Under the pieces are notes generated by a model. It was given only the letters and a program-made list of their open reading frames with translations, was not told the origin of the DNA and searched no databases. A program made the position numbers and the translations under genes. This document shows, piece by piece, positions 26,358 through 53,472 of a stretch of DNA of 64,000 nt (the stretch's first letter is position 1; each line of letters begins with the position of its first letter). The stretch is from Segetibacter sp. 3557_3 (GTDB lineage: Bacteria; Bacteroidota; Bacteroidia; Chitinophagales; Chitinophagaceae). The stretch is from the NCBI RefSeq assembly GCF_004354985.1, contig NZ_SMSK01000005.1:310001-374000 (forward strand), read 5' to 3'.

Positions 26358-26404
26358 CTTATACTTAGCTTTAAGGCAAAGCTATTTCAATAAGCCGAGA
26401 TGCA

Positions 26405-29230: not shown

Positions 29231-29340
29231 AAACGGAACAGGGATGACGGATCGCAGATCAGGTAATGGATCCAAATAGCAAACAGGTCTTGAGATCACA
29301 ATTCGTACACTGGTTGTTAAGAGCATTCTCTTTCCTTATT

Positions 29341-29456: not shown

Positions 29457-29473
29457 CGTGTGCCCTATTCCTG

Positions 29474-29953
29474 CTACAGTTGCCTGATGAATTCCTCTGG
29501 TTGATCCGGTGTTAGTATGATCTTCTTCTGGTTCCCGGCAATAATCATTACTGCCCGGTCGCAACGTGTTGCATACCATATCATTGCTCCAATACCGGTG
29601 TGGTAAAATTTACCGTAATACCCAAATAAGCCCCCAACTCCAAACGTACGGATGGAATATTTCAAACGGCCGTTTTCCAGCAATTCACACGACTGGATCG
29701 TGTCTATTTCAATTGCGACCCTGCCTGCAGGCCGATGTATAATCACCTGCCCATTTGATATTTCGTAGTTGACCGGGTGGTACAAATACGAAAACAGGTA
29801 TACCAGGGCAACGATAAACGCCGGCATAAAAAGTACTATAGTGCCCTTAACGATAAATGCCCCTAAACCAATCACTATCAAAATTAAAAATCCAATCGTT
29901 ATCGTCGTTGTAACCGTTCTGACAAGCCTGTCTGGTGTTGCCTTAAAAATCAT
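29474..29953 (-). CDS. Small membrane protein with bacterial PH-like domain
   Basis: 159 aa. Residues ~14-60 form two adjacent hydrophobic helices (ITIGFLILIVIGLGAFIV and TIVLFMPAFIVALVYLF). The soluble part carries a beta-rich segment (YEISNGQVIIHRPAGRVAIEIDTIQSCELL) that looks like the bacterial PH (bPH/DUF304-like) fold, ending in a typical KKIILTPDQPEEFI helix approach. Function is unknown; such proteins are membrane-anchored, with the PH-like domain probably cytoplasmic. It appears monocistronic. Confidence 0.65.
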   Translation of the reverse strand: MIFKATPDRLVRTVTTTITIGFLILIVIGLGAFIVKGTIVLFMPAFIVALVYLFSYLYHPVNYEISNGQVIIHRPAGRVAIEIDTIQSCELLENGRLKYSIRTFGVGGLFGYYGKFYHTGIGAMIWYATRCDRAVMIIAGNQKKIILTPDQPEEFIRQL

Positions 29954-38691: not shown

Positions 38692-39000
38692 TTATGTTGA
38701 ATGTTGTGTGCTAAATGTTGAATGAGGAGAAAAGTTAAGAATTATGAATTAAGAGTTATGAGTGGATTGTGTTATGTTGAATGTTGTATGCTAAATATTC
38801 AATCGAGAGAAGACTGTTGAGAGCTATGAATCAAGAGTTATGAGTGGATTTTGTTATGTTGAATGTTGTAGCAAAGGTTGAATGAGGAGAAGAGTTAAGA
38901 ATTAAAAATTAACGGTTATGAGTGGATTGTGTTATGTTGAATGTTGTATGCTAAATGTTGAATCGGGCGAACAGTTATGAATTATGAGTCAATGTCGTTT
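38692..39000 (+). repeat. ATGTTGA-family array, four ~80-bp units (3' side of propeller-protein gene)
   Basis: Units start at 38692, 38772, 38854 and 38932, the first 2 nt after the TAG. Each begins TTATGTTGAATGTTGT, continues with more 7-nt ATGTT steps, then a GAGGAGA-like spacer, then GAATTAT/GAATTAA/GAGTTAT heptads and GAGTGGATTGTG. A looser continuation lies at 39122-39225. The remaining sequence to 39451 has no gene. Confidence 0.92.
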
Positions 39001-39034
39001 ACTTAAGCAAATACTTATGGACCCAGCCGAAAAC

Positions 39035-39069
39035 TTTCTATTAAACATCGTTGCGTCGCACTCTTGTAC
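39035..39069 (+). repeat. Dispersed 35-bp repeat, copy 1
   Basis: The 35 bases from TTTCTATT to CTCTTGTAC match 49615-49649 with two differences. The core is CATCGTTGCGTCGCACTC. Part of the core recurs inverted at 52099-52146 with an internal insertion. Confidence 0.75.
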
Positions 39070-39451
39070 AATAGTAGTAGCCTGGGCCTAACAAGTTGTT
39101 TGTGGGCTTAATTAAACGATGTTAAATTATGAGTGGGTTGTGTTATGTTGAGTTAGAGAGCCGTTGAACGTTATGAATTATGAGTTAAGTGTAGCTGGTG
39201 TTATGTTAAATGTTATCGCATAGAGTTTTGTAGTTCACCACAACTCTGAAGCGTTGCATAAACTGAATAGATTATTGAGATTCACGAAATATGCGTAACG
39301 GCGATCAGATTCTAGCGTTGGCGGTAAGCATGTATTCATATTGCTTACACTCACAAGATTTAAATAACATCCAAAAGATTTTCGGGTTGTTGTTCCGTAG
39401 AATAATGCATAATAAATGCCGCTATAAAGCCATGAACATGCAACCCGGTTT

Positions 39452-39582
39452 TGACTTTTGACTTCTGACTTTTTGCCTTTTGCCTTTTGACTTTGCATTC
39501 TTCGTTTTGCATTTTACATTTTACATTTTCTCTCCTCAAAACCCTATACCCAGTACCTTAATACCATTATACCCAATACCCA
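39452..39582 (+). repeat. GACTTTT / CATTTTA / AATACC leader repeats (5' side of amidohydrolase gene)
   Basis: Three short-period families follow one another up to the start codon: GACTTTT, GACTTCT and GCCTTTT heptads (39452-39492), CATTTTA units (39507-39530) and ATACCC/AATACC units (39543-39582). The last unit abuts ATG 39584. Confidence 0.88.
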
Positions 39583-39583
39583 C

Positions 39584-41164
39584 ATGCAACGACTCACCTT
39601 CCTACTCGCCTGCCTCTTACTTGCCTGCACGGGCATTGCACAGATTGAAAAAGCCCCTGAGCGAAAAGAAGGCGAGGGTCCATATGACCAGTTGATCATT
39701 CGTGGGGTTACCCTGATCAACAGTACCGGCGCTCCCCCACTCGGGCCGGTTGATATCGTGGTAGAAAAGAACCGGATCACCCAGGTTGTAAACGTTGGTG
39801 TTCCGGGTGTCACCATCAACGAAAGCAAACGACCAAAACTAAACCCGGGTGGCAAAGAATTACAGGCGGAGGGCATGTTCCTCCTGCCCGGATTTGTAGA
39901 CATGCACGGGCACATCGGCGGTAAGGAACAGGGCACACCGGCAGAATACGTTTTCAAACTCTGGATGGCCCATGGGATCACTACCATCCGTGATCCCCTA
40001 TCCGGCAACGGGCTCGACTGGACACTCGATCAAAAGAAAAAGAGTGAACAAAACCTGATCACTGCACCAAGAATTAAGGCTTACACCAACTTCGGCATGG
40101 GCAGTAAAACCCCGATCAGCACTGCCGAACAAGCCAGGGAATGGGTGCGCGACAATGCTAAAAAGGGTTCCGACGGCATCAAGTTTTTTGGCGCCTCACC
40201 CGAGGTTATGCTTGCTGCCCTGCAGGAAAACAAACGGCTTGGCCTGCGTTCCGCCTGCCACCACGCCCAACTAAATGTTGGTCGCTGGAATGCCCTCAAC
40301 AGTGCTTATGCCGGGCTGACCACAATGGAACACTGGTATGGCCTGCCCGAAGCGATGTTTGAAAACCAAACGATTCAAAACTACCAGCCAGATTATAATT
40401 ACGCCAATGAACAGGATCGCTTTGGTGAAGCAGGAAAGCTCTGGCAACAGGCTGCCAAACGGGGTTCCGACAAATGGAACAAACTGATGGATACCCTGAT
40501 TAAACTCGACTTTACCATCGACCCCACATTTGTTGCCTACGAAGCAAACCGCGATCTCATGCGCGCCATGAACCTCGAGTGGCACAAAGAATATACCCTA
40601 CCTTCCGTATGGAAATTCTATCATCCCAGCAGAACCGCGCATGGCTCTTACTGGCACTCCTGGGGATCAACACAGGAGATCAACTGGAAACAGAATTACC
40701 GCCTGTGGATGGACTTCGTTAACGATTATAAAAACAAAGGCGGACGTGTTACCGTTGGTACGGACGCAGCCTTCATTTATAACCTGTATGGTTTTGATTA
40801 CCCCCGGGAGATGGAATTGCTGCAGGAAGCAGGTTTTCATCCGCTGGAAGTAATCAAGGCTGCAACGCTAAACGGCGCCCAGGCGCTGGGCATGGAAAAC
40901 CTGATCGGCTCTGTTGAAGTTGGTAAGCTGGCGGACTTTGTTATCTTGGATCAAAACCCCTTGCTCGACTTTAAAGTCCTGTATGGTATAGGCGCTATAA
41001 GGCTAACAGAAGACAACAAGGTCGTACGGGTAGGCGGCGTGAAGTACACCATCAAAGACGGAATCATTTACGATGCTAAAAAACTACTCGCCGATGTAAA
41101 AAAGATGGTTGCAGACGAAAAGGCGAAAACCGGGTTTAAGATTACCATACCCGGAGCAGAGTGA
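39584..41164 (+). CDS. Secreted amidohydrolase (metal-dependent hydrolase)
   Basis: 526 aa with a signal peptide ending CTGIAQ. Motifs of the amidohydrolase superfamily are in order: the HxH metal site in GFVDMHGHIGG near residue 107, a possible carbamylated-Lys position in DGIKFFGA near 197, SACHHAQLNVG near 226, MEHWYG near 249 and VGTDAAF with the catalytic Asp near 392. The closing barrel and small beta-domain follow (AATLNGAQALGMENLIGSVEVGKLADFVIL). Such secreted members include imidazolonepropionase- and Xaa-Pro dipeptidase-like enzymes; the substrate is unknown. A sense-oriented repeat cluster ends at the start codon, and a 3' repeat starts 7 nt after the stop. Confidence 0.88.
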   Translation: MQRLTFLLACLLLACTGIAQIEKAPERKEGEGPYDQLIIRGVTLINSTGAPPLGPVDIVVEKNRITQVVNVGVPGVTINESKRPKLNPGGKELQAEGMFLLPGFVDMHGHIGGKEQGTPAEYVFKLWMAHGITTIRDPLSGNGLDWTLDQKKKSEQNLITAPRIKAYTNFGMGSKTPISTAEQAREWVRDNAKKGSDGIKFFGASPEVMLAALQENKRLGLRSACHHAQLNVGRWNALNSAYAGLTTMEHWYGLPEAMFENQTIQNYQPDYNYANEQDRFGEAGKLWQQAAKRGSDKWNKLMDTLIKLDFTIDPTFVAYEANRDLMRAMNLEWHKEYTLPSVWKFYHPSRTAHGSYWHSWGSTQEINWKQNYRLWMDFVNDYKNKGGRVTVGTDAAFIYNLYGFDYPREMELLQEAGFHPLEVIKAATLNGAQALGMENLIGSVEVGKLADFVILDQNPLLDFKVLYGIGAIRLTEDNKVVRVGGVKYTIKDGIIYDAKKLLADVKKMVADEKAKTGFKITIPGAE

Positions 41165-41171
41165 CGCTTTC

Positions 41172-41265
41172 TTATGTTGGATGTTGTATGGTAAGAAAAG
41201 TTATAAGTTATGAAGTCAGGGGTATGAGTGGTTTAAGGTTATGTTGAATGTTGTATGATAATTTT
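41172..41265 (+). repeat. ATGTTGA-family repeat (3' side of amidohydrolase gene)
   Basis: TTATGTTGGATGTTGTATGG begins 7 nt after the TGA and is followed by TTATAAG/TTATGAA heptads and a second TTATGTTGAATGTTGTATG at 41240. It is the same family as 38692-39000, in the same relation to the stop codon. Confidence 0.88.
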
Positions 41266-41333
41266 TGCATGGGAAAACAGGTACGCATTATGTATTCGTT
41301 TGCTGGGGGGGGTTGTCTTTAGATGTATCTACT

Positions 41334-41419
41334 CAACCCTGAAGGGGTTGAATTTGAATAGCTCCGGATGTAATCCGGGGAAACCATAAGAGCAACAACC
41401 AACAACCCTGAAGGGGTTG
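41334..41419 (-). repeat. Composite double-hairpin element, minus orientation
   Basis: Palindrome CAACCCTGAAGGGGTTG at 41334-41350, then CCGGATGTAATCCGG at 41364-41378, then a second CAACCCTGAAGGGGTTG at 41403-41419. It is the reverse complement of the arrangement at 44984-45069 and in 52265-53390. Confidence 0.88.
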
Positions 41420-41444
41420 AATATTGAACCTAAATCATTCGAAT

Positions 41445-41469
41445 GCCATTCCGACAAAGGAGGAATCCC
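41445..41469 (-). repeat. GGGATTCCT-GAATGGC dispersed repeat copy
   Basis: GCCATTCCGACAAAGGAGG followed by AATCCC is the reverse complement of the GGGATTCCTC...GGAATGAC block that starts each unit of the 73-bp array at 47943-48240. A diverged copy is at 47897-47918 (GTCATCCCGACTGGGAAGGA). Confidence 0.7.
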
Positions 41470-41509
41470 GGACAAAACATTTCAATTGCGATGAGATCCC
41501 TACCAGCTT

Positions 41510-41540
41510 TACATTTTTAATTTTTAATTTTTAATTTCAA
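41510..41540 (+). repeat. T-rich ATTTTTA repeat before the cytochrome gene
   Basis: ACATTTTTAATTTTTAATTT and a further ATTTC unit lie just 5' of the TTG start of the cytochrome gene, in the same orientation as before GH95. With the elements above, they account for most of the 391-base gap 41165-41555. Confidence 0.65.
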
Positions 41541-41555
41541 TTATCCTCCCTCCCC

Positions 41556-42782
41556 TTGAAAAAGCATAGACGAAAACTTGCTGTGTTACTCATCATTTGC
41601 ATGAGTACACTCTTTTTTTCGCAATGCCTTAACCGGCAGTCGGAAGTTAATGATGTCCGGTCAAATGGTTATGCCGGTTCGGAAACCTGTGTAAGTTGCC
41701 ACCGGAATTTTACAGCGTCTTATGCTGCAACGGCACACCACAACTCCACCTCACCTGCCTCCAAACAAACCATTAAAGGCAGTTTTGAAACCGACTCAAA
41801 TGTTTATGCTTATAAGCCCAATTTAAAGGTGCAGATGGAAGAACGCGACAGCCGTTTGTTACAGGTGGCTTACCTTGACGGCCGGGAAAAACAATCGGCT
41901 CCTTTCGATATTGTTGTTGGTTCGGGCAGAAAAGCACAAACTTTTTTGTATTGGATCGACGACCAGATCTACCAATTACCGGTATCGTATTTTGTGAAGG
42001 CCAGAGCCTGGGTGAACAGTCCAAACTACCCGGCAGACAAAGTCCGGTTCGACAGAAATGTACCCATTGGTTGCTTTGAATGCCATGGCTCTTATATCAA
42101 GAGAACCTCCGTTGAAGTGGTGAACAACAGGCTCAGCGATCACTTCGACAAGAACTCCATCCTCTATGGCATTGACTGCGAAAGGTGCCATGGTCCCGCA
42201 GCAAAACACGTAGCTTACCAGCAACAGCACCCCGACGAGAAAAAAGCAAAATACATTGCCAGCTTTGCATCGCTTTCAAGAGAAGATCAGCTCAACATGT
42301 GCTCCGTTTGTCATTCGGGCTTACACGACACCAAACAAACAACATTCTTTTTTCGCCCGGGCGCAAAGCTTTCGGCATTTATTCACCCCGATACCACAAC
42401 GGTAAGTCTTGCGGACATCGATGTTCATGGCAACCAGCTTCAACTCTTAAAATCAAGTGAGTGCTTTATCAAAAGCAATACCCTCAACTGCTCCACTTGC
42501 CACAACACGCACGTAAACGAGCGCGACGATCCCGCGTTGTTTTCAAAGCGCTGTATGAGTTGCCATCAACCTGACCAGGATCACTTTTGTAAAATGGCAG
42601 AAAAAGTGGGCCCGTCGATTGTGAACAACTGTATCGATTGCCATATGCCGACAAAGGAATCTAAACTAATTACCCTCCGTTCACAGGGACAAACCAAACC
42701 TACACCCAACCTTGTTCGCACGCATTATATTGCCGTTTACCCCGACGAAACAAAACGATTCTTAAAGGATCGTGACCGATAA
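41556..42782 (+). CDS. Seven-heme c-type cytochrome lipoprotein
   Basis: 408 aa from a TTG start that gives a signal peptide with Cys at about residue 24 (FFSQCL), so probably a lipoprotein. Seven CxxCH heme motifs are present in order: CVSCH, CFECH, CERCH, CSVCH, CSTCH, CMSCH and CIDCH. The pattern resembles the doubled-CxxCH and cytochrome c554-like proteins of Bacteroidota, which are extracytoplasmic electron carriers. The partner is unknown and no oxidase or reductase lies nearby. The gene ends inside the last codons of the convergent cyclophilin gene (21-nt overlap of tails). Confidence 0.9.
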   Translation: MKKHRRKLAVLLIICMSTLFFSQCLNRQSEVNDVRSNGYAGSETCVSCHRNFTASYAATAHHNSTSPASKQTIKGSFETDSNVYAYKPNLKVQMEERDSRLLQVAYLDGREKQSAPFDIVVGSGRKAQTFLYWIDDQIYQLPVSYFVKARAWVNSPNYPADKVRFDRNVPIGCFECHGSYIKRTSVEVVNNRLSDHFDKNSILYGIDCERCHGPAAKHVAYQQQHPDEKKAKYIASFASLSREDQLNMCSVCHSGLHDTKQTTFFFRPGAKLSAFIHPDTTTVSLADIDVHGNQLQLLKSSECFIKSNTLNCSTCHNTHVNERDDPALFSKRCMSCHQPDQDHFCKMAEKVGPSIVNNCIDCHMPTKESKLITLRSQGQTKPTPNLVRTHYIAVYPDETKRFLKDRDR

Positions 42783-44693
42783 TATCCGGTCGCCCATTTC
42801 GAGTTTATTAACTACGTCCATACCTGCTACCACTTCGCCCCACACCGTATATCCGTAATCGTTCCATGGTGTTGGTCGCAACATGATGGACCAATGTGAA
42901 GTCTCTGTGTCACGGCCCGATGAAGCCATGTTTACCGTTCTTTCGCCATGCGGGCGAAAGTTATACTCCGAACGTATTTTAACACTGGTAAGACTATCAA
43001 AAGGGGGTGATGGGGTGCCGCCGGTTTGATTAACAAAATTCGGTATCACGCGATAAAACATCAATTCATTGATCGCACCCGATTTTACGAGGTGAAGAAA
43101 GTGGGTTACCGTAAAAGGGGCTTCCTCCACAAACAAGCGGATCGTATAATTTCCACGGTCGGTTGCGATCCGTATTTTCTGGTCAACAGGAATAGCAACG
43201 ATTTCTTTCCAATCAAATGTTTTGTAAACAGGTTTCGGCGCACTTGTCTGCCGTTCGGGTTCTCTTTTAAAACCAGCCCGGTAGGCTGCCAATGCATTAT
43301 CCAAATCAGCAACAACAGTTTGGTATGGATCACTGGCCCACCTGGCGCGTGCAGTCTTTAAAAAGGTGCTGTCTTTTACAACCTGGGCCAGACGTTCGCC
43401 GGAGTTCGCCAGCGACTTTGCAGCCAGACTTACCAGGTATTTATTAGACGACTGGATAGCTGTTACCAGGAATTTTGCGTATCGCGTTATGGAGTCAGGT
43501 GGTAGATTGCTGCCAGCGTACAACCTCCTGATCGGGTTGAAAAGTGCCTGGCTAACCTCGCGATCTGTTTCCGTATATGCAGCCGTAGTTAGATAGGAAT
43601 AGTTGGTTGGATCTGTTGCAAGCGCAGTTGCCAGTAGTATTTTCTCATGCCTAAGTTTCGATGCGGAATAGCTTTTTTTCATCAACTCGCTTACAGGCTT
43701 TTTATCTGTGGCAACTGCAAACGCGGCTTCCAATAGGATCGTTCTTACCCGCCAGTTTTTCTCATTACTGGCATGATCCATCAATGCTTGTGCCTGTTCA
43801 GCGACTTTGTTAGCCGTAAAATATTCGGCAGCGGTAATCCGAACACTGATGTGTTCGTTGGAGGCTAACTTTTGAAATGCAAGTTGCGTTACTTCGGGAG
43901 TATTGTATTGCTTTAGTACCGCAAGTGCATCAACCCGAACCCGGTAATCCTTTGCTGTATCTGCTACTGCAATCAGGGCTCGTTGCGCTGCTCCTGTCTT
44001 TACGTTTCTTAGTGCCCGTAATATGCCCATACGAACATTGGCAGATGGGTCATGTAGCACTACATCAATGATGGCTTTTTCGTAACCTGCAACAGGAGCA
44101 GCAGAGAAGTAATACGCTGCTGCATGACGGACCGCCTCTGGTTGTTGTGGCAATAAAAATGCCCCCATGATCTCGTCCCCGGTTTTATGATATGCTTTCC
44201 TGATCGCAGCACGATACAAGGCCCGGGCAAGTCCTTCTTTATCCTCCTGGCCAACCGGTTTATAGCTGCATAAAAAGTTCACCGCTTCGGTATTGGCACA
44301 CCTGCCCAGTGCTTCCAGCTCAACACGTTTAACTTTTACAGACTGCTCACTCCCGATCGCCGTAATCAGTCCTGAAACCGTAAGAGGTGTTTTCATTTGT
44401 CCCAACGCAAAGGCTGCATTTATCCTGACGTCTGCGTTGGCATCGTTTAACAGCAATAAAAGATCTGGGATGGCTGTACTATCCTGTATTGAACTGAATT
44501 GTAGGGCTGCCTCTTTGCGATACACCGGGTTATTATGCTTGAAGTACGCCACAACAGCGTTGGTTAAACGATTGTATCCATGCGAATAAATCTGCTGCAA
44601 TATGGGATCACGAAATTTGTTTACGGCACGCTTTTGAGCAACAGCCGGCAGCGACAAGCTGGTAAGACTAAGAAGAAGGAAAATGTTATTCAT
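42762..44693 (-). CDS. HEAT-repeat protein fused to a cyclophilin-type peptidyl-prolyl isomerase
   Basis: 643 aa with a signal peptide ending LPAVAQ. Residues ~50-450 are HEAT-like helical pairs (AIPDLLLLLNDANADVRINAAFALGQM is the clearest). The C-terminal ~170 residues form a cyclophilin domain: IRLFVEEAPFTVTHFLHLVKSGAI, then FYRVIPNFVNQTGG with the catalytic Arg near residue 545, then NMASSGRDTETSHWSIML and YTVWGEVVAGMDVVNKLE. It likely assists folding of exported proteins in the periplasm, with the HEAT scaffold binding clients. The FxRVxP and Q residues needed for activity are present; the SQFFI-type strand is replaced by SHWSIML, as in some bacterial homologues. Confidence 0.9.
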   Translation of the reverse strand: MNNIFLLLSLTSLSLPAVAQKRAVNKFRDPILQQIYSHGYNRLTNAVVAYFKHNNPVYRKEAALQFSSIQDSTAIPDLLLLLNDANADVRINAAFALGQMKTPLTVSGLITAIGSEQSVKVKRVELEALGRCANTEAVNFLCSYKPVGQEDKEGLARALYRAAIRKAYHKTGDEIMGAFLLPQQPEAVRHAAAYYFSAAPVAGYEKAIIDVVLHDPSANVRMGILRALRNVKTGAAQRALIAVADTAKDYRVRVDALAVLKQYNTPEVTQLAFQKLASNEHISVRITAAEYFTANKVAEQAQALMDHASNEKNWRVRTILLEAAFAVATDKKPVSELMKKSYSASKLRHEKILLATALATDPTNYSYLTTAAYTETDREVSQALFNPIRRLYAGSNLPPDSITRYAKFLVTAIQSSNKYLVSLAAKSLANSGERLAQVVKDSTFLKTARARWASDPYQTVVADLDNALAAYRAGFKREPERQTSAPKPVYKTFDWKEIVAIPVDQKIRIATDRGNYTIRLFVEEAPFTVTHFLHLVKSGAINELMFYRVIPNFVNQTGGTPSPPFDSLTSVKIRSEYNFRPHGERTVNMASSGRDTETSHWSIMLRPTPWNDYGYTVWGEVVAGMDVVNKLEMGDRILSVTIL

Positions 44694-44983
44694 AAGAAGA
44701 TTTATAATGCAAAATGTAAAAGTCAGGTATCATCGCGAACTGGATCAGCCATGGTACTTCATTCCACATTCGTTATGTAATCACCAATACATGTCTCATA
44801 GTAACCGCAACCATAAACCACAACTCTTGAACGAGCGTCGCCCGTCCGGGTGGGCAAGCAAGAATTGACATGGAACAAATGGCGGCAACTAAAAATGCGA
44901 AGGTGAACTTAGAAGTCAACTGGCATTAGGAAATAGCCGGATCTTGATCTCATTCATCGTCTTGCATCCATGCTCTCATTATT
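44694..44983. other. Intergenic region upstream of the cyclophilin gene
   Basis: It contains a short AAAATGTAAAAGTC tract at 44711-44724 (GACTTTT form in the sense of the cyclophilin gene) and a GC-rich patch GAACGAGCGTCGCCCGTCCG at 44830-44849 related to patches near 35272 and 63980. No gene. Confidence 0.5.
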
Positions 44984-45069
44984 CAACCCCTTCAGGGTTG
45001 TGGAGAACAGATTTGATTTGTTTCCCGGATTTCATCCGGGGCTATTTACATGCAACCCCTTCAGGGTTG
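44984..45069 (+). repeat. Composite double-hairpin element, plus orientation
   Basis: CAACCCCTTCAGGGTTG at 44984-45000, CCCGGATTTCATCCGGG at 45024-45040 and CAACCCCTTCAGGGTTG at 45053-45069. The two outer palindromes are identical and flank the inner one. Frames across it encode a spurious FNPFRVV...FHPGLF peptide. Confidence 0.92.
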
Positions 45070-45177
45070 AACTTCCAAGTAAAATACCATCATCTACGAC
45101 TGCCTATTCTTTTAACGAAAGCCCCTACTCTGTATCGGTTTATAAAGCGCAACAGATTTTTCTTGTAACAATTATCA

Positions 45178-45512
45178 TATAACATTCAACACCACATAAT
45201 CCACTTTTAATGCTTAACGCAGAACTCTTAACTGTTCTCATACAACATTCAACATAGCATAAACTACTCTTAATTTTTACCTCATAACTCATAACTGTAT
45301 TCATACAACATTTAGCATACAACATTCAACATAGAATAACCCACCCTTAATTCTGAATTCATAACTCTTAACTGTATTCGTACAACATTCAACATAACTA
45401 AAACTACTCTCAATTCTTCACTCATAACTCTTAACTGTATTCATTCAACATTTAGCATACAACATCTAACATAAAATAAACTACTCTCAATTCTTAACTC
45501 ATAATTCTTAAG
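45178..45512 (-). repeat. ATGTTGA-family array (3' side of GH31 gene)
   Basis: In the sense of the GH31 gene, the sequence 5 nt after the TAG reads TTAAGAATTATGAGTTAAG and then TTATGTTAGATGTTGTATGC. This pattern is repeated about five times at 60-85 nt spacing. It is the inverted counterpart of the 38692-39000 array on the other strand. Confidence 0.92.
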
Positions 45513-45515
45513 TCC

Positions 45516-47765
45516 CTACAGCTTCACTTCCATCTTCTCCCCTTTGTATTCCACCCATCGCGTTGGCGTATTCTGGCGCTGACCAGCTATCAATTGAACA
45601 TTGAATGCGCGGTTGATCTTTTGTCCCCTTGTGTTTGCAGGTTCAATGGTCAGCAACCTGGTTTGATCGTTCCACGCAAAATGAATGGTTGACCCTGGCA
45701 GCTTTTCATAATCGAGTGTGTTGCCATCGTCTTCATACAATTCGTAAGTTCCATTTGCACCTGCATATACGCGCAAGGTTGCCGTGTCAGTCGTGGGCTC
45801 GTCAACGTATTGCCGTACCGGGTCCATCGGAATGATCGAGCCCGCCACAACGTACAGCGGCATCGTCGACAATTCCACATACCGGGATATCCATTGGTTG
45901 CCCTGGTACTTGCGGTTGGACCAGAAGTCGTACCAGGCGCCTTCGGGCAGGTATACTTCTTTCATCGTCCTCCCTTTTTCAGTCACTGGCGCAACCAGGA
46001 AGTTGCGTCCCCACAGGTACTGCGACCTAATCCTTAGTGCTACACTATCATCCGGATAATGCATCCATAGGGGTCGCATCAGCGGCAGGCTCTTGTCGTA
46101 GTTTTCCCTTGCTGCAGTATAGTTATACGGCAGTAACTGGTAACGCAGCTCAAGAAACTTTTTGCAAATGGGTTCTACCTGTGGATTGTACAACTGGGTG
46201 GTATCAAGACCTGCACCCGGACTTAGCGAAACTTCGTTTGGCCCGATGGCGCGGTTGCTCCATCCCCATGGATGGTGCAGCTTCCACTGCCTGCCATGCG
46301 ATCGAAAGAGGGGTGAAAACGTTGCAAACTGGAACCAACGGGTATAGAGTTCGCCTGTGAATTCCCGTGTTGCCACGAAGCCACCGATATCACTGCCCCA
46401 ATATGGTGATACGCCAAGCCCGGCGTTCAAACCGAGTTGCACGTGTGCATCAAGTGTTGACCAAAGTGAAAAGCAATCGCCCGACCAGTTCCAGCTGCCA
46501 TAGCGATGCATGCCCGCATAACCGGTGCGGTGTAAAGCAAATGGACGAAGGTTGGGCTTGTCCATCAACTGGCCCTCGCGATAAATCATATGCCTTGTAA
46601 GGCGCGAAGCAATGGGCAATTCGTCGCCGTCGTCGGGCCACCAGCCATCAATTTTTTTATTCACCGGTTGATGCCATCGCCAGTAATTAAAGGCATAATC
46701 CCGGCCCGTATCTGTTGCAGAAGGTGCCATCACTCCATGGAGTGTTCGCGGGGTATTGTTAACGTGCAGGATAACTTTGAAGTGCTGCTCCTGCAATTGT
46801 TTTATCATCTGGTCAGGCTTATCAAAAGTCTTTGGGTTAAAGTCCATGTTTGCATGCCCCATGTTCCAGCCTGTTGGAGCGTAACCCGTGCCGAGATAGA
46901 TCATGACATCAGCGGGTATTTTTTTGTCGCGGAATGTTTTTGCTTCCTGCAGTATACTATCGGGGCTCTCGAGCGTACGATGGCTTTGCATATAACCTAG
47001 TGCCCATTTGGGTGGCATAGGAGCCTTGCCGGTCAACCGGGTGTAATGTTGCATGATCGCAGGAGTAGAGTCGTTGTAGCTGATAAAGACATCAAGCGGC
47101 AGTGCCTTTTCCGTGGGCAGCGCCGGACTGGGGCGGGGTATGAAGTGGCCGGTTGTACCGGTTCGTAAATCAAATGCGGCTTTGTAAGGAAGGTGGAAAA
47201 ACAAGGACCATTTTTCAACCGGGTTGATGAGTAGCGGAATGGGTATTCTTGACCCATAAATCTGGGATTCGTTTGCAGGCACCCCTTCCTGCATTTCGTC
47301 GTACGTGCCCCTGCGATCATATCGTTGTCCACCCGAGCCGAGCCCGTATAGCGGTCCATTACCGGATGTGAAATGAACGTTGCCATTAGCAGTGTCGATG
47401 GCAAACTGTTGAAACAATTTTCCCCGTTTAAAAAAAGACAGCTTAAGTGGTGATGGAGAAAAGGTGACACTGATGTTCTGCAATTTGAACTGCCGTGCTG
47501 CACTTAACTGGGTTGTTTTTACGTCCGGCGTTTGCCAGCGGTCTTCAATTACCAGGTCTGTTGTTAATGGTTCGGGTTGTTTTGCCGCGTTTAATGGAAG
47601 CAACGTAAACCGTACCGTGTTTGGTGAAACCGAAGTCAGCGAAAGTTGTACCGGCTGACCAGCAACAGTGATTTGCCGCTGCGCATCAACATTCCCTATA
47701 CCGCAAGAAAGCAGCACCAGCCCCAAAATCGTAAATGGCAACTTGAGTCGATAGGATTTTTTCAT
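45516..47765 (-). CDS. GH31 family alpha-glycosidase
   Basis: 749 aa from ATG 47765, which opens the export signal MKKSYRLKLPFTILGLVLLS; the frame continues upstream to 47927 without family sequence. GH31 features are the N-terminal beta-sandwich (YGLGSGGQRYDRRGTYDEMQ), KWALGYMQSHRT, the nucleophile region GWWPDDGDE near residue 376, RYGSWNWSGDCFSLW near 427 with the acid/base Asp, SPYWGSDIGGF near 453, FSPLFRSHGRQ and the C-terminal DUF5110-like domain (VYAGANGTYELYEDDGNTLDYE). It hydrolyses alpha-linked glucosides, xylosides or galactosides outside the cytoplasm. The subsite residues do not let me choose between them; the DDGDE around the nucleophile differs from the common DMNE. Confidence 0.92.
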   Translation of the reverse strand: MKKSYRLKLPFTILGLVLLSCGIGNVDAQRQITVAGQPVQLSLTSVSPNTVRFTLLPLNAAKQPEPLTTDLVIEDRWQTPDVKTTQLSAARQFKLQNISVTFSPSPLKLSFFKRGKLFQQFAIDTANGNVHFTSGNGPLYGLGSGGQRYDRRGTYDEMQEGVPANESQIYGSRIPIPLLINPVEKWSLFFHLPYKAAFDLRTGTTGHFIPRPSPALPTEKALPLDVFISYNDSTPAIMQHYTRLTGKAPMPPKWALGYMQSHRTLESPDSILQEAKTFRDKKIPADVMIYLGTGYAPTGWNMGHANMDFNPKTFDKPDQMIKQLQEQHFKVILHVNNTPRTLHGVMAPSATDTGRDYAFNYWRWHQPVNKKIDGWWPDDGDELPIASRLTRHMIYREGQLMDKPNLRPFALHRTGYAGMHRYGSWNWSGDCFSLWSTLDAHVQLGLNAGLGVSPYWGSDIGGFVATREFTGELYTRWFQFATFSPLFRSHGRQWKLHHPWGWSNRAIGPNEVSLSPGAGLDTTQLYNPQVEPICKKFLELRYQLLPYNYTAARENYDKSLPLMRPLWMHYPDDSVALRIRSQYLWGRNFLVAPVTEKGRTMKEVYLPEGAWYDFWSNRKYQGNQWISRYVELSTMPLYVVAGSIIPMDPVRQYVDEPTTDTATLRVYAGANGTYELYEDDGNTLDYEKLPGSTIHFAWNDQTRLLTIEPANTRGQKINRAFNVQLIAGQRQNTPTRWVEYKGEKMEVKL

Positions 47766-47942
47766 AACGAGGTATTTGTGCAGCAAGCAAAGCGGACCAT
47801 TGCTAAAAGTAATTATTGCATGGTTGATTACGGGCTGAATAGGACTAACCATTTTTAAGCAACAGTAGCCTGATTTTAACCATAACAAGGGTCCTGTCAT
47901 CCCGACTGGGAAGGAGTCTGATCGCAATAAAATGTTTGTCAG
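47766..47942. other. Divergent spacer between GH31 and NamZ genes
   Basis: Spacer with a diverged GTCATCCCGAC...GGAAGGA repeat at 47897-47918. Promoters for the two divergent genes must be in 47766-48306, but no clear TAnnTTTG box was found. Confidence 0.4.
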
Positions 47943-48240
47943 GGATTCCTTCTTAGTCGGAACGACAGAAGTTTACGTCTCATCTCCCATCACTCATCTC
48001 TCATCACTCTCAACGGGATTCCTCTTCGCCGGAATGACAAAAAGTTCACGTCTCATCTCCCATCACTCATCTCTCATAACTCTCAACGGGATTCCTCTTC
48101 GTCGCAATGACAAAAAGTTCACGTCTCATCTCCCATCACTCATTTCTCATCACCATCAACGGGATTCCTCTTCGTCGCAATGACAAAAAGTTCACGTCTC
48201 ATCACTCATCTCTCATATCTCATCACTAGTAACGGGATCC
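47943..48240 (+). repeat. 73-bp tandem array with CTCATCT heptads (5' side of NamZ gene)
   Basis: Units start GGGATTCCTC at 47943, 48015, 48088, 48161 and (partial) 48234, with spacing 72-73 nt. Each unit has a GGGATTCCTC...GGAATGAC block, an AAAAGTTCACG linker and then CTCATCT/CCCATCA/CTCATCT heptads. Units 2-4 are near-identical. Frames through it are artefacts. Confidence 0.93.
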
Positions 48241-48306
48241 CCCGTGCCTCGGAATGACCGCCGTTCCCGGGAAAAAATCCATAATTTCATCGGCTAAAAT
48301 GATTGC

Positions 48307-49530
48307 ATGAAACTTTCCTATTTATCATACCTGCTGGTGGCTATTGTAGCTTCGTGCAGCTTCAAAACGGGTCCGACACGGGCACAGGCCAAAGCCGGTA
48401 AAACCGACATTGTTACCGGTGCAGAAAAAACAAACGAATACCTCCCTTACCTCAAGGGAAAACGCGTTGGCATACTTGCAAATCCCACTACCATCATCGG
48501 TACAAGACACCTGGTGGACAGCATGCTCGCAACAGGGATCAATATTGTAAAAGTGTTTGGCCCCGAACACGGTTTCAGGGGTCGCGCAAGTGCGGGTGTT
48601 CGGGTAAGCGATGAAAAGGACTCCGCAACAGGCGTAAAGGTGATCTCGCTTTACGGGCCTAAACGCAAGCCCAGCAAAGAAGACCTGGCCGATGTCGACG
48701 TCATGATCTTCGACGTACAGGATGTAGGCTGCCGGTTTTATACTTACATCAATGTGCTTAGCTATATCATGGAGTCGTGCGCAGAAAATAATAAGGAACT
48801 CATTGTTCTCGACCGTCCAAATCCAAACGGCTACCTGGTCGACGGACCCATACTCGACATGCGATTGAAGTCGGGTATCGGCATTTTCCCCATTCCTATC
48901 GCACACGGAATGACCATCGCCGAGTTTGCGCAGATGATCAACGGCGAGGGATGGCTGCCCAATAAAATGACCTGTAAACTCAGGATCGTTAAGCTGGCCA
49001 ACTACAACCACGATAAACCATATACCCTTCCGGTAAAACCATCCCCAAACCTGAATACGCAACAAAGCATCATGCTGTACCCTTCTACCTGCCTGTTTGA
49101 AGGCACGATCCTGAACCATGGCCGGGGCACGCAGTTTCCATTTACCGTTTTAGGCAGTCCATTGCTGAAAGACAAATACGCGTTTTCGTATACACCCGTA
49201 AGCATACCCGGCATGAGCGAAACACCCCTGCATATGAACCAGGTTTGTTACGGGCTCGACTTAAGAGACTACGACATCTCAAAACTGCGCGCGTCAAAAA
49301 GAATCAACATACAATGGATGATCGACCTGTATAATGCTTACCCGATTAAGGAAAAGTTTTTTGACCGTACACAAAGCAAAGAGATGGGCAACATAGACGG
49401 ACTTGCAGGAAGCTCCGAATTCAGGCAGCAAATCATGTCGGGTAAATCGGTTAAAGAAATCCAGGACTCGTGGGAGCCCGGTCTGTCGCAATACAAAACC
49501 ATGCGGAAGAAGTACATGCTTTACGACTAG
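48307..49530 (+). CDS. namZ: Exo-beta-N-acetylmuramidase NamZ-like (DUF1343, GH171)
   Basis: 407 aa. Lipoprotein-type N-terminus with Cys at residue 17 (IVASC). DUF1343 features run throughout: KRVGILANPTTI near residue 52, VKVFGPEHGFRGRASAG near 80 with the proposed catalytic Glu, DVMIFDVQDVGCRFYTYI near 132, LDRPNPNGYLVDGPIL near 168, IPIAHGMTIAEFA near 198 and the long LYPSTCLFEGTILNHGRGTQFPF segment near 258. NamZ proteins release terminal MurNAc from peptidoglycan fragments, a step in cell-wall recycling or scavenging. The protein is full length. A 3' repeat begins 5 nt after the stop and a 73-bp tandem array lies upstream. Confidence 0.9.
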   Translation: MKLSYLSYLLVAIVASCSFKTGPTRAQAKAGKTDIVTGAEKTNEYLPYLKGKRVGILANPTTIIGTRHLVDSMLATGINIVKVFGPEHGFRGRASAGVRVSDEKDSATGVKVISLYGPKRKPSKEDLADVDVMIFDVQDVGCRFYTYINVLSYIMESCAENNKELIVLDRPNPNGYLVDGPILDMRLKSGIGIFPIPIAHGMTIAEFAQMINGEGWLPNKMTCKLRIVKLANYNHDKPYTLPVKPSPNLNTQQSIMLYPSTCLFEGTILNHGRGTQFPFTVLGSPLLKDKYAFSYTPVSIPGMSETPLHMNQVCYGLDLRDYDISKLRASKRINIQWMIDLYNAYPIKEKFFDRTQSKEMGNIDGLAGSSEFRQQIMSGKSVKEIQDSWEPGLSQYKTMRKKYMLYD

Positions 49531-49535
49531 TCGGG

Positions 49536-49573
49536 ATTATTTTGGATGTTATATGTTGAATGTTGAATTGGTG
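49536..49573 (+). repeat. ATGTTGA-family repeat (3' side of NamZ gene)
   Basis: TTATTTTGGATGTTATATG, then TTGAATGTTGAATTGG, starts 5 nt after the TAG; a short member of the family seen at 38692, 41172, 45512, 49963 and 53470. The rest of 49531-49963 has no gene. Confidence 0.8.
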
Positions 49574-49614
49574 CGGTTACATTTAGAAGCATTTTTTTGG
49601 ACCGAACCTTAGGA

Positions 49615-49649
49615 TTTCTATTGAACATCGTTGCGTCGCACTCGTGTAC
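49615..49649 (+). repeat. Dispersed 35-bp repeat, copy 2
   Basis: It matches 39035-39069 at 33 of 35 positions. Both copies lie in the spacer after an ATGTTGA-family 3' repeat, and both are preceded by a GGACC-containing stretch. Confidence 0.75.
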
Positions 49650-49924
49650 GGCAGTTTCGTTGCGCAGCGATGCATGACCATCAAAGCTTATAACGGCCTT
49701 GAATGTTGATGCGGGTCCATAAGAAAGAGAAATGAAGGTTAAGACACGAGGAAAGATCTTTTTAATGCATGCACAAGGTGAGGAATACTGATCAGTTGAT
49801 AGCTAATATGTTTATCTTCTAATACCGAAGTAGTCAAGCTATACTATAGCGTTTAACATGCAGCTGCCTTTAGGTAATCAACTCAAGGACCATGTTTGAA
49901 GTGCCGTGACTCATTTTGCCTCGC

Positions 49925-49963
49925 ATTCATTTAACATTCAGCATACAACATTCAACATAACCA
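49925..49963 (-). repeat. ATGTTGA-family repeat (3' side of GH97 gene)
   Basis: In the GH97 sense, TTATGTTGAATGTTGTATGC begins 3 nt after the TAG and is followed by TGAATGTTAAATGAATG, with 7-nt ATGTT steps. Confidence 0.88.
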
Positions 49964-51928
49964 CTACTCCCCTTCCGGTACGAGCACCGCGACCCATCCA
50001 CCGCCTGGCATCAGGTTCATCGTGATGTTGTCGCCACGTTGCACGGCTTGAGAACTGATCGTATAATCCGCCGCATGGTTGTCGGCATTGATCCCATCAG
50101 CAACAACACGCATATTGTACTTCCTGTTGTCGAGAAACGACAGGGCTGCTGTAACATCCCGCTTTTCAAAATCAGTCATTGCACCAATATACCAGCGCGC
50201 GCCGTGTTTACGGGCGACAGCTACGTATTGCCCGGCCTTTGCCTGAAGCGCAATGGTGGTATCCCAGGTAGTAGGTATGCCGGAGATAAAACGGGTAAAG
50301 GTGCTATCCTGTAAATAATTCGACGGGTTGTCGCAGAGCATCTGTAAAGGGCTCTCATACACCACGTACATGGCAGCCTGGTGCGCCCTTGTACCCATGC
50401 TCATCGGCTCGGTGTATACAATGCGAAAATTTTCCTTTGATGCATTAATCATCGCGCCGGGCGTATAGTCCATTGGTCCTGCGGTCATACGCGTGAATGG
50501 GAGCGTAACATTGTGTTTTGGGGTGATGTTGGCTTCCCACTTGTTGTTTTCCGCACCACGCACGCCTTCATACGAAATCACGTTCGGGTACTTGCGGTTT
50601 AAACCAACAGGTTTGTAAGCGCCATGCAGGTCGAGCAGCAACTTTCTTTTGGCAGTAGCCACTGCTGCCCGCTCGTAAAAGTTCACCATGTACTGATCTG
50701 CCCTTGCCATGAAGTCGACCTTGGTTCCTTTTACACCCCATTTTACAAACTGGTCGAGGATGTTGTCCATATCCTTATCCAGCGGGTTCCATAAACTCCA
50801 GAGTATGATGCCTACGTTTTTTGTATTGCCGTAACGAACAAGTTCCGGTATGTCAATCTCAGGTCTTGCTTGCAGCACATTGGTCGTTGTGAGCGACCAA
50901 CCTTCGTCGAGTATGACGTACTCGAGACCAAATTTGGATGCGAAGTCGATATAGTATTTATAGGTTTCGGTATTAAGGCCGGCTTTAAAGTTCACACCAT
51001 AAATGTTGTTGGCATTCCACCAATCCCAGGCGACTTTACCGGGTTTGATCCAGGAAACATCGGTTAACACAGACGGTGTTGCGAGTTTATAGGTCAGGTT
51101 ATTTTCAAGGATCTTCTTATCGTCGTTGGTGATGCTTACGGTACGCCAGGGAAAGGTGCGGGTACCTGCAGTTTCAGCAATAAAGTCTTCAAGGGCAGTA
51201 ATGGTATTGGAACGGTCGCCACGTGGGCGCATGGATTTGATCACCTTTGGAAAACCGGCCGTAACTCCGTTGCCACTTGTTCCAAACAGGAACATGTTGG
51301 GATAGTCATACAGGTCTGCTTCACTGATCAGCACTCTTGTTCCCGAAGGAGCAGTAAGCAACATGGGGAGGTTGCCATGTTGCCGGTTGTTAAATGCAGC
51401 AATGGTGCTGTCCTTAAAAAGGTTTTCAAAGTGGGATTGAAACGCGGTGTCGGTTTCTGTTGGCCAGAACACCTGGAAGTTGTCGCTGAAGTTGTAGTTA
51501 CAGGTTTCTGATACCACCTTGATCTTTGGTTCCCTGAAGCGGGTTTCAAAGCGGTACACAGCACCATCATCGTAAGCACGAAAGCGGATGCTATAATCTT
51601 CTTTAAAGGTTAACAACAGCTCGTTGTATTGCGACCTGATGTTCCGGCTTTTTACCGGCACAACAGCGGTGATCATTTCGTTTTTAGAGGACCTCTTTTC
51701 CTGCTGCACTTTTGCGCCGGCTGCAGGTATTACAGCATTGGAAAGCACCATGCTGATCTCACCGGGCTTGAGCAACACATTGCCATCATAAGCAACCGAC
51801 CAGGTTAGCTTATTACCTGTACTTACGGTGATTTCCGTGTGTTTGTCGGGCGACTGGAGCCGGTAATCTTTGGCCGAAACGCCTGAAGTAAATATCAGCA
51901 ATACAAGAGCAGCAATTAGTTTTTGCAT
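49964..51928 (-). CDS. GH97 family glycoside hydrolase (probably retaining)
   Basis: 654 aa from ATG 51928, which gives the signal peptide MQKLIAALVLLIFTSGVSAK. It has the N-terminal super-beta-sandwich (YRLQSPDKHTEITVS), the barrel start KVAWDWWNANNIYGVNF near residue 310, EYVILDEGWS near 345, GTKVDFMARADQ near 403, VISYEGVRGAENN near 450 and the C-terminal sandwich. In the characterised retaining GH97 enzymes the nucleophile Asp sits in a KxDF context, as here, whereas SusB-type inverting enzymes lack it. An alpha-galactosidase or similar retaining activity is therefore more likely than SusB-like glucosidase; this rests on motif memory. It is periplasmic. Confidence 0.92.
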   Translation of the reverse strand: MQKLIAALVLLIFTSGVSAKDYRLQSPDKHTEITVSTGNKLTWSVAYDGNVLLKPGEISMVLSNAVIPAAGAKVQQEKRSSKNEMITAVVPVKSRNIRSQYNELLLTFKEDYSIRFRAYDDGAVYRFETRFREPKIKVVSETCNYNFSDNFQVFWPTETDTAFQSHFENLFKDSTIAAFNNRQHGNLPMLLTAPSGTRVLISEADLYDYPNMFLFGTSGNGVTAGFPKVIKSMRPRGDRSNTITALEDFIAETAGTRTFPWRTVSITNDDKKILENNLTYKLATPSVLTDVSWIKPGKVAWDWWNANNIYGVNFKAGLNTETYKYYIDFASKFGLEYVILDEGWSLTTTNVLQARPEIDIPELVRYGNTKNVGIILWSLWNPLDKDMDNILDQFVKWGVKGTKVDFMARADQYMVNFYERAAVATAKRKLLLDLHGAYKPVGLNRKYPNVISYEGVRGAENNKWEANITPKHNVTLPFTRMTAGPMDYTPGAMINASKENFRIVYTEPMSMGTRAHQAAMYVVYESPLQMLCDNPSNYLQDSTFTRFISGIPTTWDTTIALQAKAGQYVAVARKHGARWYIGAMTDFEKRDVTAALSFLDNRKYNMRVVADGINADNHAADYTISSQAVQRGDNITMNLMPGGGWVAVLVPEGE

Positions 51929-52098
51929 GAAGGTTTGGTTGGTAGTATGATTGGTGGTGATAAGCAAATCAAAGTCTATGAAGAAACAAAAATCAAATCA
52001 ATTTTTGTGACGACGCCGACATTAAGATGCCCGTTTAAAATTGGATACAGGTCAATTCAATGTGTATTGATTCAACAAAGTTGCGTAATGAACCTACA

Positions 52099-52146
52099 GT
52101 ACAAGAGTGCGACCCGCCAACGCGTTGGGGGCAAGCTGCAACGATG
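52099..52146 (-). repeat. Dispersed repeat, inverted copy with a palindromic insert
   Basis: GTACAAGAGTGCGAC (52099-52113) and GCAACGATG (52138-52146) are the reverse complement of the ends of the 39035 copy. Here they are separated by a 24-nt insert that contains the perfect palindrome CCAACGCGTTGG (52116-52127). Confidence 0.6.
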
Positions 52147-52264
52147 ACGAGCAATGACCAAATGCCGGGAGCCACAAGAAAGTCACCCATAGCATTGGAT
52201 CCCAGGTTCGGTCTGCCATTGCGTCTATTCTCCTGATCATTACCATGTTTTTTGTTTCGTTATT

Positions 52265-53390
52265 CAACCCCTTCAGGGTTGTAAAAACGATATGGTATTC
52301 GTACCCCGGATTTCATCCGGGGCTATTTAAAGGCAACCCCTCCGGGGTTGAAAAACAAAGCACGTTTCGCAAACTACCTTTACACATTTCATTTACTTCA
52401 AGAGCCAACGAGGTACCATTCACACAATACAACAGCAAAACACGGTAACTCATAACACTTAATTCATTACTCTTAACTTCTCTCTTCATTTAGCATACAA
52501 CATAGATTTTATCGCCCTCCCCCGGGGTTGAAAAACATCCAGCCCTAATCAATAATAACGTCTGTCATCTTCTTTATTCAACCCCTTCAGGATTGTAAAA
52601 ACGATATGGTATTCGTACCCCGGATTTCATCCGGCGCTATTTAAGGGCAACCCCATCGGGGTTGAAAAACATCCAGCCTGACCAACAAAAACGTCTGCCG
52701 TTTTTTTCATTCAACCCCTTCAGGGTTGCAAAAACGATATGGTATTTGTACCCCGGATTTCATCCGGCGCTATTTAAAGGCAACCCCTCCGGGGTTGAAA
52801 AACAAAGCACGTTTCGCAAACTACCTTTACACATTTCATTTACTTCAAGGGCCAACGAGGTACCATTCACACAATACAACAGCAAAACACGGTAACTCAT
52901 AACACTTAATTCATAACTCTTAGCTTCTCTCTTCATTTAGCATACAACATAGATTTTATCGCCCTCCCCCGGGGTTGAAAAACATCCAGCCCTAATCAAC
53001 TATAACGTCTGTCATCTCTTTTATTCAAATCCTTCAGGGTCGTAAAAACGATGTGGTATTCGTACCCCGGATTTCATCCGGCGCTATTTAAGGGCAACCC
53101 CATCGGGGTTGAAAAACATCCAGCCCTAATCAATAATAACGTCTGTCATCTTCTTTATTCAACCCCTTCAGGATTGTAAAAACGATATGATATTCGTACC
53201 CCGGATTCATCCGCGGCTATTTAAGGGCAACCCCTTCAGGGTTGAAAAACCAAACCACGAATTCGCAAACGATCTCTACACATTTCATTTACTTCAAGAG
53301 CCAACGAGGTACCATTCACACAATACAACAGCAAAACACGGGCAACTCATATGGCTTAATCGATAACTCAGAACTGTTCCCGCAACACCA
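52265..53390 (+). repeat. ~447-bp tandem repeat built from double-hairpin elements
   Basis: Two full units (52265-52712 and 52713-53158) and a third partial one follow each other. Landmarks recur at 447-448 nt: a CAACCCCTTCAGG palindrome at 52265 and 52713; the block CCAACGAGGTACCATTCACA in all three units at ~52400, ~52850 and ~53300. Each full unit holds two hairpin composites, with outer palindromes CAACCCCTTCAGGGTTG, CAACCCCTCCGGGGTTG or CAACCCCATCGGGGTTG around an inner CCCCGGATTTCATCCGG. It also holds a stretch of ATGTTGA-family and CTCATAA-type heptads. No gene. The whole 51929-53473 gap is noncoding as far as I can see. Confidence 0.92.
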
Positions 53391-53472
53391 CGTTAAATTC
53401 ATAATTCTTAATTCATAACTCATAATTTCTCTCTTCATTCAACATTTATCATACAACATCTAACATAATCCT
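53391..53472 (-). repeat. ATGTTGA-family repeat (3' side of DPP-IV-like gene)
   Basis: In the sense of the peptidase gene, TTATGTTAGATGTTGTATGA begins 4 nt after the TAG, then TAAATGTTGAATGAAGAGAG and AATTATGAGTTATGAATTAA heptads. It has the same order of parts as 38692-38770. Confidence 0.9.

Follow-up and report, generated by a model that had tools for sequence, protein, structure and literature searches.

Degenerate 7-nt tandem units between genes are familiar from cyanobacteria as short tandemly repeated repetitive (STRR) sequences, and integron attC sites, which carry inverted core sites and a palindromic fold, lie just past the stops of unrelated genes in gene orientation. The closest described systems are the GGGAATC heptamers of Xanthomonas and the GGGGA(C/T)T heptamers of Nostoc. 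According to the available part of Rehm et al. (2015, PMC4692102), most of these lie either on the coding strand, at most 50 bp from a stop, or on the non-coding strand, at most 50 bp ahead of a start. Some overlap the stop, and four units are preferred; their function is unknown, and quadruplexes are discussed. Direct repeats of TAACTGA, found in Beggiatoaceae, Cyanobacteria, and some Bacteroidetes, are intergenic and mixed with other heptamers, and in the Beggiatoa genome they lie mostly just upstream of starts, as the accessible part of MacGregor (2015, PMC4679880) reports. Here, we describe degenerate arrays with one nearly C-free strand in Segetibacter sp. 3557_3 (Bacteroidota; RefSeq assembly GCF_004354985.1), both in a 64,000-nt window (contig NZ_SMSK01000005.1, positions 310,001 to 374,000) and in 2.0 Mb out of the 6.75-Mb assembly (35 contigs; rated 100% complete). 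The C-free strand of these arrays points away from the nearer gene, so that it is sense past a stop and antisense ahead of a start.

Arrays follow the stops of six unrelated genes in the window

Direct reading of the window confirmed a preliminary description of six arrays of the ATGTTG/GAGTTAT family that follow six genes in coding orientation, three on each strand. The plus-strand arrays lie at 38692 to 38989 (after a sortilin/BNR propeller gene), 41172 to 41277 (amidohydrolase), and 49537 to 49569 (NamZ), and the minus-strand arrays lie at 45156 to 45511 (GH31), 49926 to 49960 (GH97), and 53356 to 53468 (DPP-IV-like). The NamZ and GH97 arrays, both short and of the ATGTTG kind, occupy opposite ends of one convergent gap. 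Measured from the stop to the first TTATGTT, TTATTTT, or TTAAGAATTATGAG word, the spacers are 2 nt for the propeller gene (GA), 7 nt for the amidohydrolase (CGCTTTC), 4 nt for GH31 (GGAC), 6 nt for NamZ (TCGGGA), 3 nt for GH97 (TGG), and 5 nt for DPP-IV (AAGGA). Offsets of 2, 7, 5, 5, 3, and 4 nt had been given; three are exact, and those for GH31, NamZ, and DPP-IV are off by one. Further blocks of the family lie in the gap after the propeller gene, past an insertion that resembles a miniature inverted-repeat transposable element (MITE) (39119 to 39216, plus strand), and in the DPP-IV gap, within a 447-nt tandem duplication (52892 to 52950) and in its second copy (52445 to 52503; both minus strand). 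ATGTT and GAATTAA/GAGTTAT blocks alternate as described, but their order is not fixed, since either kind may lead and the GH31 array opens with the GAGTTAT kind.

Pfam assigns the six products to six different kinds, in agreement with the claim that they share no family. Domains were found in all six genes and in some reach nearly to the C terminus (NamZ_C ends at residue 406 of 407, GH97_C at 662 of 667, and Peptidase_S9 at 717 of 723); thus, the stops are real and not a product of gene calling. The coding tails of the DPP-IV gene and two more genes match array-less relatives up to the last codons, which bears out the view that the arrays are trailer features that begin at the stop and not coding remnants. 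Rfam 15 gave 0 matches at gathering score in the window.

The C-free strand points away from the nearer gene across the sampled genome

Genes were called on the 2.0 Mb with a home-made hexamer caller, which gave 1344 genes after filtering and 1152 gaps; calls with a score under 18 or a length under 150 nt and gaps shorter than 20 nt (150 nt where stated) were dropped before counting. Arrays were detected by a periodicity search that is blind to composition. This search returned 73 periodic intergenic segments, compared with 0 in shuffled gaps. Their periods were exclusively 7, 8, and sums thereof (43 segments with period 7 and 23 with period 8); no intergenic periodicity was seen at 4 to 6, 9 to 13, or 17 to 20, and coding DNA held 0 segments at periods 7 and 8. 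GC skew was strong (|GC skew| of at least 0.5) in 50 of the 73 segments. On the C-free strand, the unit words are ATGTTGA/T, GARTTAW, GTTGANNR, GGTATTGR, GATGAGA, and an A/T-rich AAAATGT kind.

We scored an array as outward when the 5' end of its C-free strand was closer to the gene behind than its 3' end was to the gene ahead. By this definition, 43 of the 50 strongly skewed arrays were outward, whereas 1000 random placements gave a mean of 25 and a maximum of 36; the other 7 break the rule. The border behind was within 80 nt in 29 of these 50 segments, and the border ahead in 1. Four unit vocabularies follow the rule clearly and two less surely; by word, the outward fractions include 20/27 for ATGTTG, 14/17 for GAGTTAT, 18/23 for GTTGATAA, 19/23 for GGTATTG, and 35/45 for the A/T-rich kind. 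The A/T-rich AAAATGT family, whose reversed words formed 49 chains compared with 45 for the real words, is excluded from the counts that follow unless stated otherwise; figures for start-like codons, back-up stops, fold energy, and duplex energy include it.

Convergent gaps offer the cleanest test, both of their borders being stops. Within 60 nt of a stop in these gaps, 15 arrays point away from it and 0 point towards it, and over whole convergent gaps, 18 of 23 arrays (in 17 gaps) are outward. All nine arrays in divergent gaps (9/9) are outward as well. In tandem gaps, again within 60 nt, 30 arrays lie behind a stop and 4 face one, while 9 lie behind a start and 2 face one.

Several trivial causes were considered and rejected. 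Column-shuffled words produced 0, 0, and 1 chains compared with 104 for the real words, which argues against an artefact of word matching; of the 40 chains that reversed words produced, 33 were outward, but each of the 40 overlaps a real array on its own strand. The family is also commoner than chance would give: the pattern TTATGTTGAATGTTGTATG with up to 2 mismatches has 108 matches genome-wide, against 6 for the same pattern read backwards. Replication strand is not the cause, as the C-free strand fell on the plus and minus strands 11 and 14, 20 and 13, 14 and 13, and 9 and 10 times on four contigs. Nor is the rule a property of dispersed repeats in general. For GTTGCGTCGCACTCTTGTAC, 33 of 58 copies are nearer the border behind and 0 lie within 30 nt of a stop; for CAACCCCTTCAGGGTTG, the corresponding figures are 6 of 9 (in 3 gaps) and 0 near stops.

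A general base bias accounts for one side of the rule at most. Trailers in array-less gaps are not C-poor (skew, 0.008; 95% interval, -0.007 to 0.024); hence, the 3' bias belongs to the arrays, and general bias is rejected as its cause. Array-less leaders, by contrast, are G-poor too (skew beside the start, -0.24), and this property of the genome at large explains part of the 5' side. Leaders that carry arrays are G-poor and almost unfolded: start-like codons number 1.1 per 60 nt (n = 12), compared with 5.4 when the array leaders are flipped and 2.4 in other genes, and the median 60-nt fold energy is -0.95 (14 leaders with an array) compared with -7.25 (80 sampled others). For trailers, the medians are -5.5 (56 with an array) and -10.0 (60 sampled others). 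The 5' side of the rule therefore has a ready reason, and the 3' side has none.

Arrays abut stops without a fixed offset

In gaps of at least 150 nt, the first array of the ATGTTG/GAGTTAT family after a stop begins at most 15 nt from it in 15 of 21 cases and at most 30 nt from it in 19. Random placement (n = 2000) gave a mean of 0.9 (maximum, 5) within 15 nt and of 1.6 (maximum, 7) within 30 nt. Across all families but the A/T-rich one, 39 of 53 first arrays lie within 30 nt past the stop, where 5.8 are expected. Short arrays of the ATGTTG/GAGTTAT family adjoin the stop too (8 of 9 within 30 nt), so the filling of gaps does not by itself account for abutment. Other copies of the family are thus not at random distances. 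The proposal of a fixed offset is not supported, because offsets span 0 to 30 nt without phase, and some arrays enter the last codons and provide the stop; with such offsets, an insertion that recognises stop codons need not be invoked. The preliminary description was also incomplete: a minority of the family, 8 of 29 first arrays in gaps of at least 150 nt, are antisense, upstream of starts, and other unit vocabularies are placed alike.

Array words are nearly species specific

The words of the arrays hardly extend beyond this species. The GGTATTG pattern has 124 matches here and none in 58 relatives, and the ATGTTG pattern is present in 11 of the 59 genomes searched, counting this one. One congener, G003, has its own, different words, and in 200 kb all 4 of its arrays (4/4) are outward; three others (G004, G006, and G009) have no periodic segment in the 57 to 200 kb sampled from each, and 110 kb of a genome from another genus (G025) holds one segment, which is under the skew cut. 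For 80 named Bacteroidota loci with crude open reading frames, 7 strongly skewed segments are listed, 6 of which are outward as read from distances.

Most orthologues examined have no such array, and among the orthologous gaps of 13 conserved neighbour pairs in relatives, one has an array. A NamZ relative in G003 has a GTTGATAAG array directly after its stop, where the NamZ gene of this genome has an ATGTTG array; with 52% identity, this relative may be a paralogue. By eye, the stop is followed by the relative's own repeat-like words in 4 of the 30 amidohydrolase relatives listed (L103, L108, L122, and L123). In L122, from a Sphingobacteriales metagenome-assembled genome, a TTGACAG-type repeat lies past the stop and its apparent reverse complement comes next, and the two could form a large hairpin. 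In G009, the stop of an orthologue with 85% identity is followed within a few bases by GAATTATGAG, at the place of a GAGTTATGAGTTAAG array in this genome, which suggests GAATTATGAG as a possible array seed.

Origin of the arrays

The most likely account, to which we assign a probability of roughly one half, combines slippage at gene ends, copying, and a filter on orientation. Degenerate heptamer and octamer simple-sequence arrays, like cyanobacterial STRR sequences, would form where they lie, through slippage in short C-poor seeds located at the ends of genes, and would spread between loci by copying. Near genes, they would survive mostly in one orientation, with the transcript that exits the gene C-free and the transcript that enters it G-free. 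On the 5' side, the filter would most likely be translation together with leader structure, in that a G-free leader would lack ATG, GTG, and TTG as well as Shine-Dalgarno-like purine runs and would have nearly no fold. On the 3' side, an array running from the stop would replace the intrinsic terminator and yield a trailer that folds weakly and holds many stop codons. The layout of the arrays is observed directly; that slippage and copying produced them and that selection filtered them is inferred.

Several observations weigh against this account. The GATGAGA vocabulary is outward in just 9 of 14 cases, and 23 of the 73 periodic segments lack strong skew (|skew| < 0.5) and were dropped from the orientation count. 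Were orientation the sole filter, arrays would be expected throughout the permitted part of the gap and not close against stops; because even short arrays abut, seeding at gene ends must be added to the filter. Abutment is weak on the start side, where 5 of 25 arrays lie within 30 nt (2.6 expected; maximum, 9). No argument from translation or structure clearly forbids a G-free array past a stop. Among 55 array genes, 75% meet another in-frame stop in the next 10 codons, compared with 41% of 787 others, yet the available part of PMC6764699 reports that selection for back-up stops in eubacteria was not found, and we reject such stops as the reason for the arrays. Two composites 14.6 kb apart are 86% alike over 74 nt, which speaks for copying more than for slippage. 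The MITE end AATGTCGTTTACTTAA, used as a control, is outward in 44 of 61 cases, and 8 copies follow a stop by no more than 30 nt, where about 4 would be expected, although it is not a clean control, as both inverted ends of a mid-gap element score outward and some copies sit within arrays. Finally, in 4 of 5 relatives sampled, which have few arrays, the first 20 nt of trailers show a slight shortage of C (skew, 0.10 to 0.20, with G004 at -0.04; 31 to 86 stops each), and a general trailer bias may therefore contribute there.

Arrays stand where intrinsic terminators would be expected, and this observation bears on what they might do. Within the first 150 nt after the stop, a terminator-like hairpin (stem-loop plus T run) follows 0 of 39 stops with arrays and 115 of 657 without; in a control of the scan, sequence read backwards gave 26 of 657 compared with 107 of 657 for real sequence. 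Hairpins are also rare behind the last array (1 of 37) and at the stops of the A/T-rich family alone (1 of 14). With looser settings and the A/T-rich family included, they occur behind arrays in 3 of 51 cases and directly past ordinary stops in 147 of 787. Since the rates behind arrays (3/51 and 1/37) do not exceed the background found 150 to 300 nt past ordinary stops (39/451), hairpins are replaced and not pushed outward. Over whole gaps of 150 to 1000 nt, hairpins are present in 9 of 47 with arrays and 189 of 614 without. The exclusion is partly trivial, because C-free DNA cannot make G-C stems.

The absence of hairpins is in keeping with a role, or a niche, at the 3' ends of transcripts, and we tentatively entertain a functional 3'-end module as the foremost alternative, albeit a possibility well behind slippage and filtering. 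The C-free trailer would serve as an RNA site for multivalent binding, by RRM-family RNA-binding proteins for instance, or as a non-hairpin transcript end, and would set mRNA 3' ends, stability, or localisation, with the 5' copies as by-products or a second function. Beyond the mutual exclusion of arrays and hairpins, a G025 orthologue has a hairpin and T run directly after its stop at the position of the array in this genome, and in a gene other than DPP-IV the coding tail matches, to the last codon, a relative with a hairpin and T run just past the stop. According to the part of PMC4692102 at hand, starts or ends of Xanthomonas transcripts are more frequent at repeats that form quadruplexes than at control repeats. 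This alternative has to accommodate vocabularies that differ between congeners, which is unusual for a protein site, as well as the three congeners without a segment, the antisense copies before starts, which would present a different RNA, and the trivial component of the exclusion. Two RRM-domain matches in the genome (C19, 51596 to 51808, and C1, 148067 to 148276) are candidates for an RNA protein that binds the arrays.

A mutational origin tied to transcription is doubtful. R-loops on RNA free of ribosomes just past stops, and on antisense RNA that leaves 5' ends, would seed and expand arrays with C-free non-template strands. This would account for abutment on the stop, where ribosomes leave, for the outward C-free strand on both sides, and for the shortage of arrays in coding DNA, but it requires frequent antisense transcription leaving 5' ends, and A/T-rich units are poor R-loop formers.

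It is improbable, though conceivable, that letter-poor words mark transcript ends, with C-free trailers that are complementary to G-free leaders of the same small vocabularies and could pair with those of many other mRNAs, and some activity writing the words outward in several phyla. For leader-trailer pairs of the same vocabulary from different gaps (n = 169), the median duplex energy is -40.7 kcal/mol, compared with -31.1 for different vocabularies (n = 607) and -21.9 for ordinary trailers (n = 840).

The preliminary description had also offered an insertion mechanism, and a mobile element or enzyme that inserts at stop codons now seems very unlikely. Stop usage is shifted in its favor: 42 array genes end in TAG (19), TGA (13), and TAA (10), compared with TAA (621), TAG (275), and TGA (175) among 1071 others, and the 14 stops of the A/T-rich family are TAG (7), TAA (4), and TGA (3). 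Similarly, the DPP-IV gene ends in TAG, whereas six orthologues in congeners (59 to 71% identity) end in TAA and have no array, which places the junction at or beside the stop. A G-rich array edge would also explain this shift. The last 10 coding bases are 43% G in array genes and 23% G elsewhere; in the DPP-IV gene, this G-rich tail is older than the array, because four of the six array-less congeners keep a nearly identical GGAGG tail. Insertion at stops is further contradicted by offsets of 0 to 30 nt without phase, by arrays that enter codons, and by copies of the ATGTTG family that lie antisense before starts. The edges of arrays vary, and no constant element end was seen. The MITE-like element, which has terminal inverted repeats and direct repeats, is separate.

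For the two families of this finding, quadruplex elements can be dismissed as far as canonical motifs are concerned: despite a placement rule identical to that in the available account of the Xanthomonas and Nostoc heptamers, a search by pattern only detected the canonical motif in 2 of 149 arrays, and the 44 elements that belong to these two families had none.

Other arrays and repeats in the window

The window holds further arrays outside the ATGTTG/GAGTTAT family. After stops, a GTTGATAA-type C-free array (20634 to 20727, plus strand) abuts the stop of a DUF2891 gene (19512 to 20633, plus strand), and a GGTATTG-type C-free array (29322 to 29459, minus strand) lies 14 nt past the stop of a bPH_5 gene (29474 to 29953, minus strand). 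Before starts, an AAAATGT/GGTATTG array (39510 to 39583, minus strand) is antisense to the amidohydrolase gene and abuts its start codon, giving a G-poor leader, and the C-free strand of an A/T-rich G-poor run (41496 to 41563, minus strand) is antisense, 37 nt before a plus-strand start at 41601. A GGTATTG/GTTGAT array (17600 to 17826, minus strand) has its C-free strand antisense to a gene that starts at 17925 on the plus strand and lies near mid-gap (98 and 101 nt). A GTTGATAA array at 26404 to 26548 (plus strand) breaks the rule slightly, with a start 85 nt behind and a stop 70 nt ahead, and a GGATTGCGGATTGGCGGATTG array at 29020 to 29230, whose vocabulary contains C, stands outside the C-free rule.

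The MITE-like element in the gap after the propeller gene lies at 38990 to 39124 (by eye), and 31 further pairs of its ends occur in the 2.0 Mb. It measures 128 to 189 nt (two of 241 nt) and has terminal inverted repeats of CAATGTCGTTTAsTTAAG and apparent direct repeats of about 9 to 10 nt at its edges; AATTATGAGT flanks the window copy on both sides. Although some copies sit inside heptamer arrays, we reject the arrays as part of this element, since an array is found within 40 nt for 5 of 31 pairs and the element is flanked by direct repeats of its own. Copies of GTTGCGTCGCACTCTTGTAC at 39050 to 39069 and 49630 to 49649 are among 58 in 56 gaps, in both orientations and away from gene borders; related sequences occur in several congeners, and GTTGCGTCGCACTCTTGTAC is found inside some copies of the MITE-like element. 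The 447-nt tandem duplication (within 52230 to 53250; 96% over 300 nt) contains palindromic CAACCCCTTCAGGGTTG motifs, and related motifs occur at 41333 to 41420 and 44980 to 45070. A repeat of a different kind, with a 73-nt period, lies between the GH31 and NamZ genes (47896 to 48241) in four in-register copies, three of which are 88 to 100% like the reference.

Relation to described heptamer repeats

The arrays probably differ from integron attC sites, in that the nearly C-free strand leaves almost no room for RYYYAAC and the trailers fold weakly; attC itself was not searched for. Like the TAACTGA repeats, they are intergenic heptamer arrays, but the TAACTGA unit has one C and one G, and the outward rule is not described in the accessible part of PMC4679880. 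TAACTGA is not among the array units listed here (ATGTTGA/T, GARTTAW, GTTGANNR, GGTATTGR, and similar), although no search was aimed at it. In the literature searched, which left most subscription journals outside, there was no report of the outward rule in Bacteroidota or for C-free non-quadruplex words.

The nearest likeness is to the heptamers of Xanthomonas and Nostoc as they appear in the available part of Rehm et al.: these, too, are intergenic 7-nt arrays whose G-containing strand points outward at both gene ends. The outward rule itself is thus already published for other heptamers. The arrays described here come from another phylum, have several vocabularies in one genome, have periods of 7 and 8, are highly degenerate, and have a nearly C-free strand with almost no canonical quadruplex motifs. 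With such a motif in 2 of 149 arrays, the rule does not depend on quadruplexes, and quadruplex formation cannot be its general cause. Should the arrays substitute for terminators, this would point to transcripts being ended or protected without a hairpin. Taken with the published cases, the outward rule now extends over three phyla with unrelated units, and its recurrence in unrelated repeats suggests a general rule for where heptamer repeats may sit, which can now be tested.

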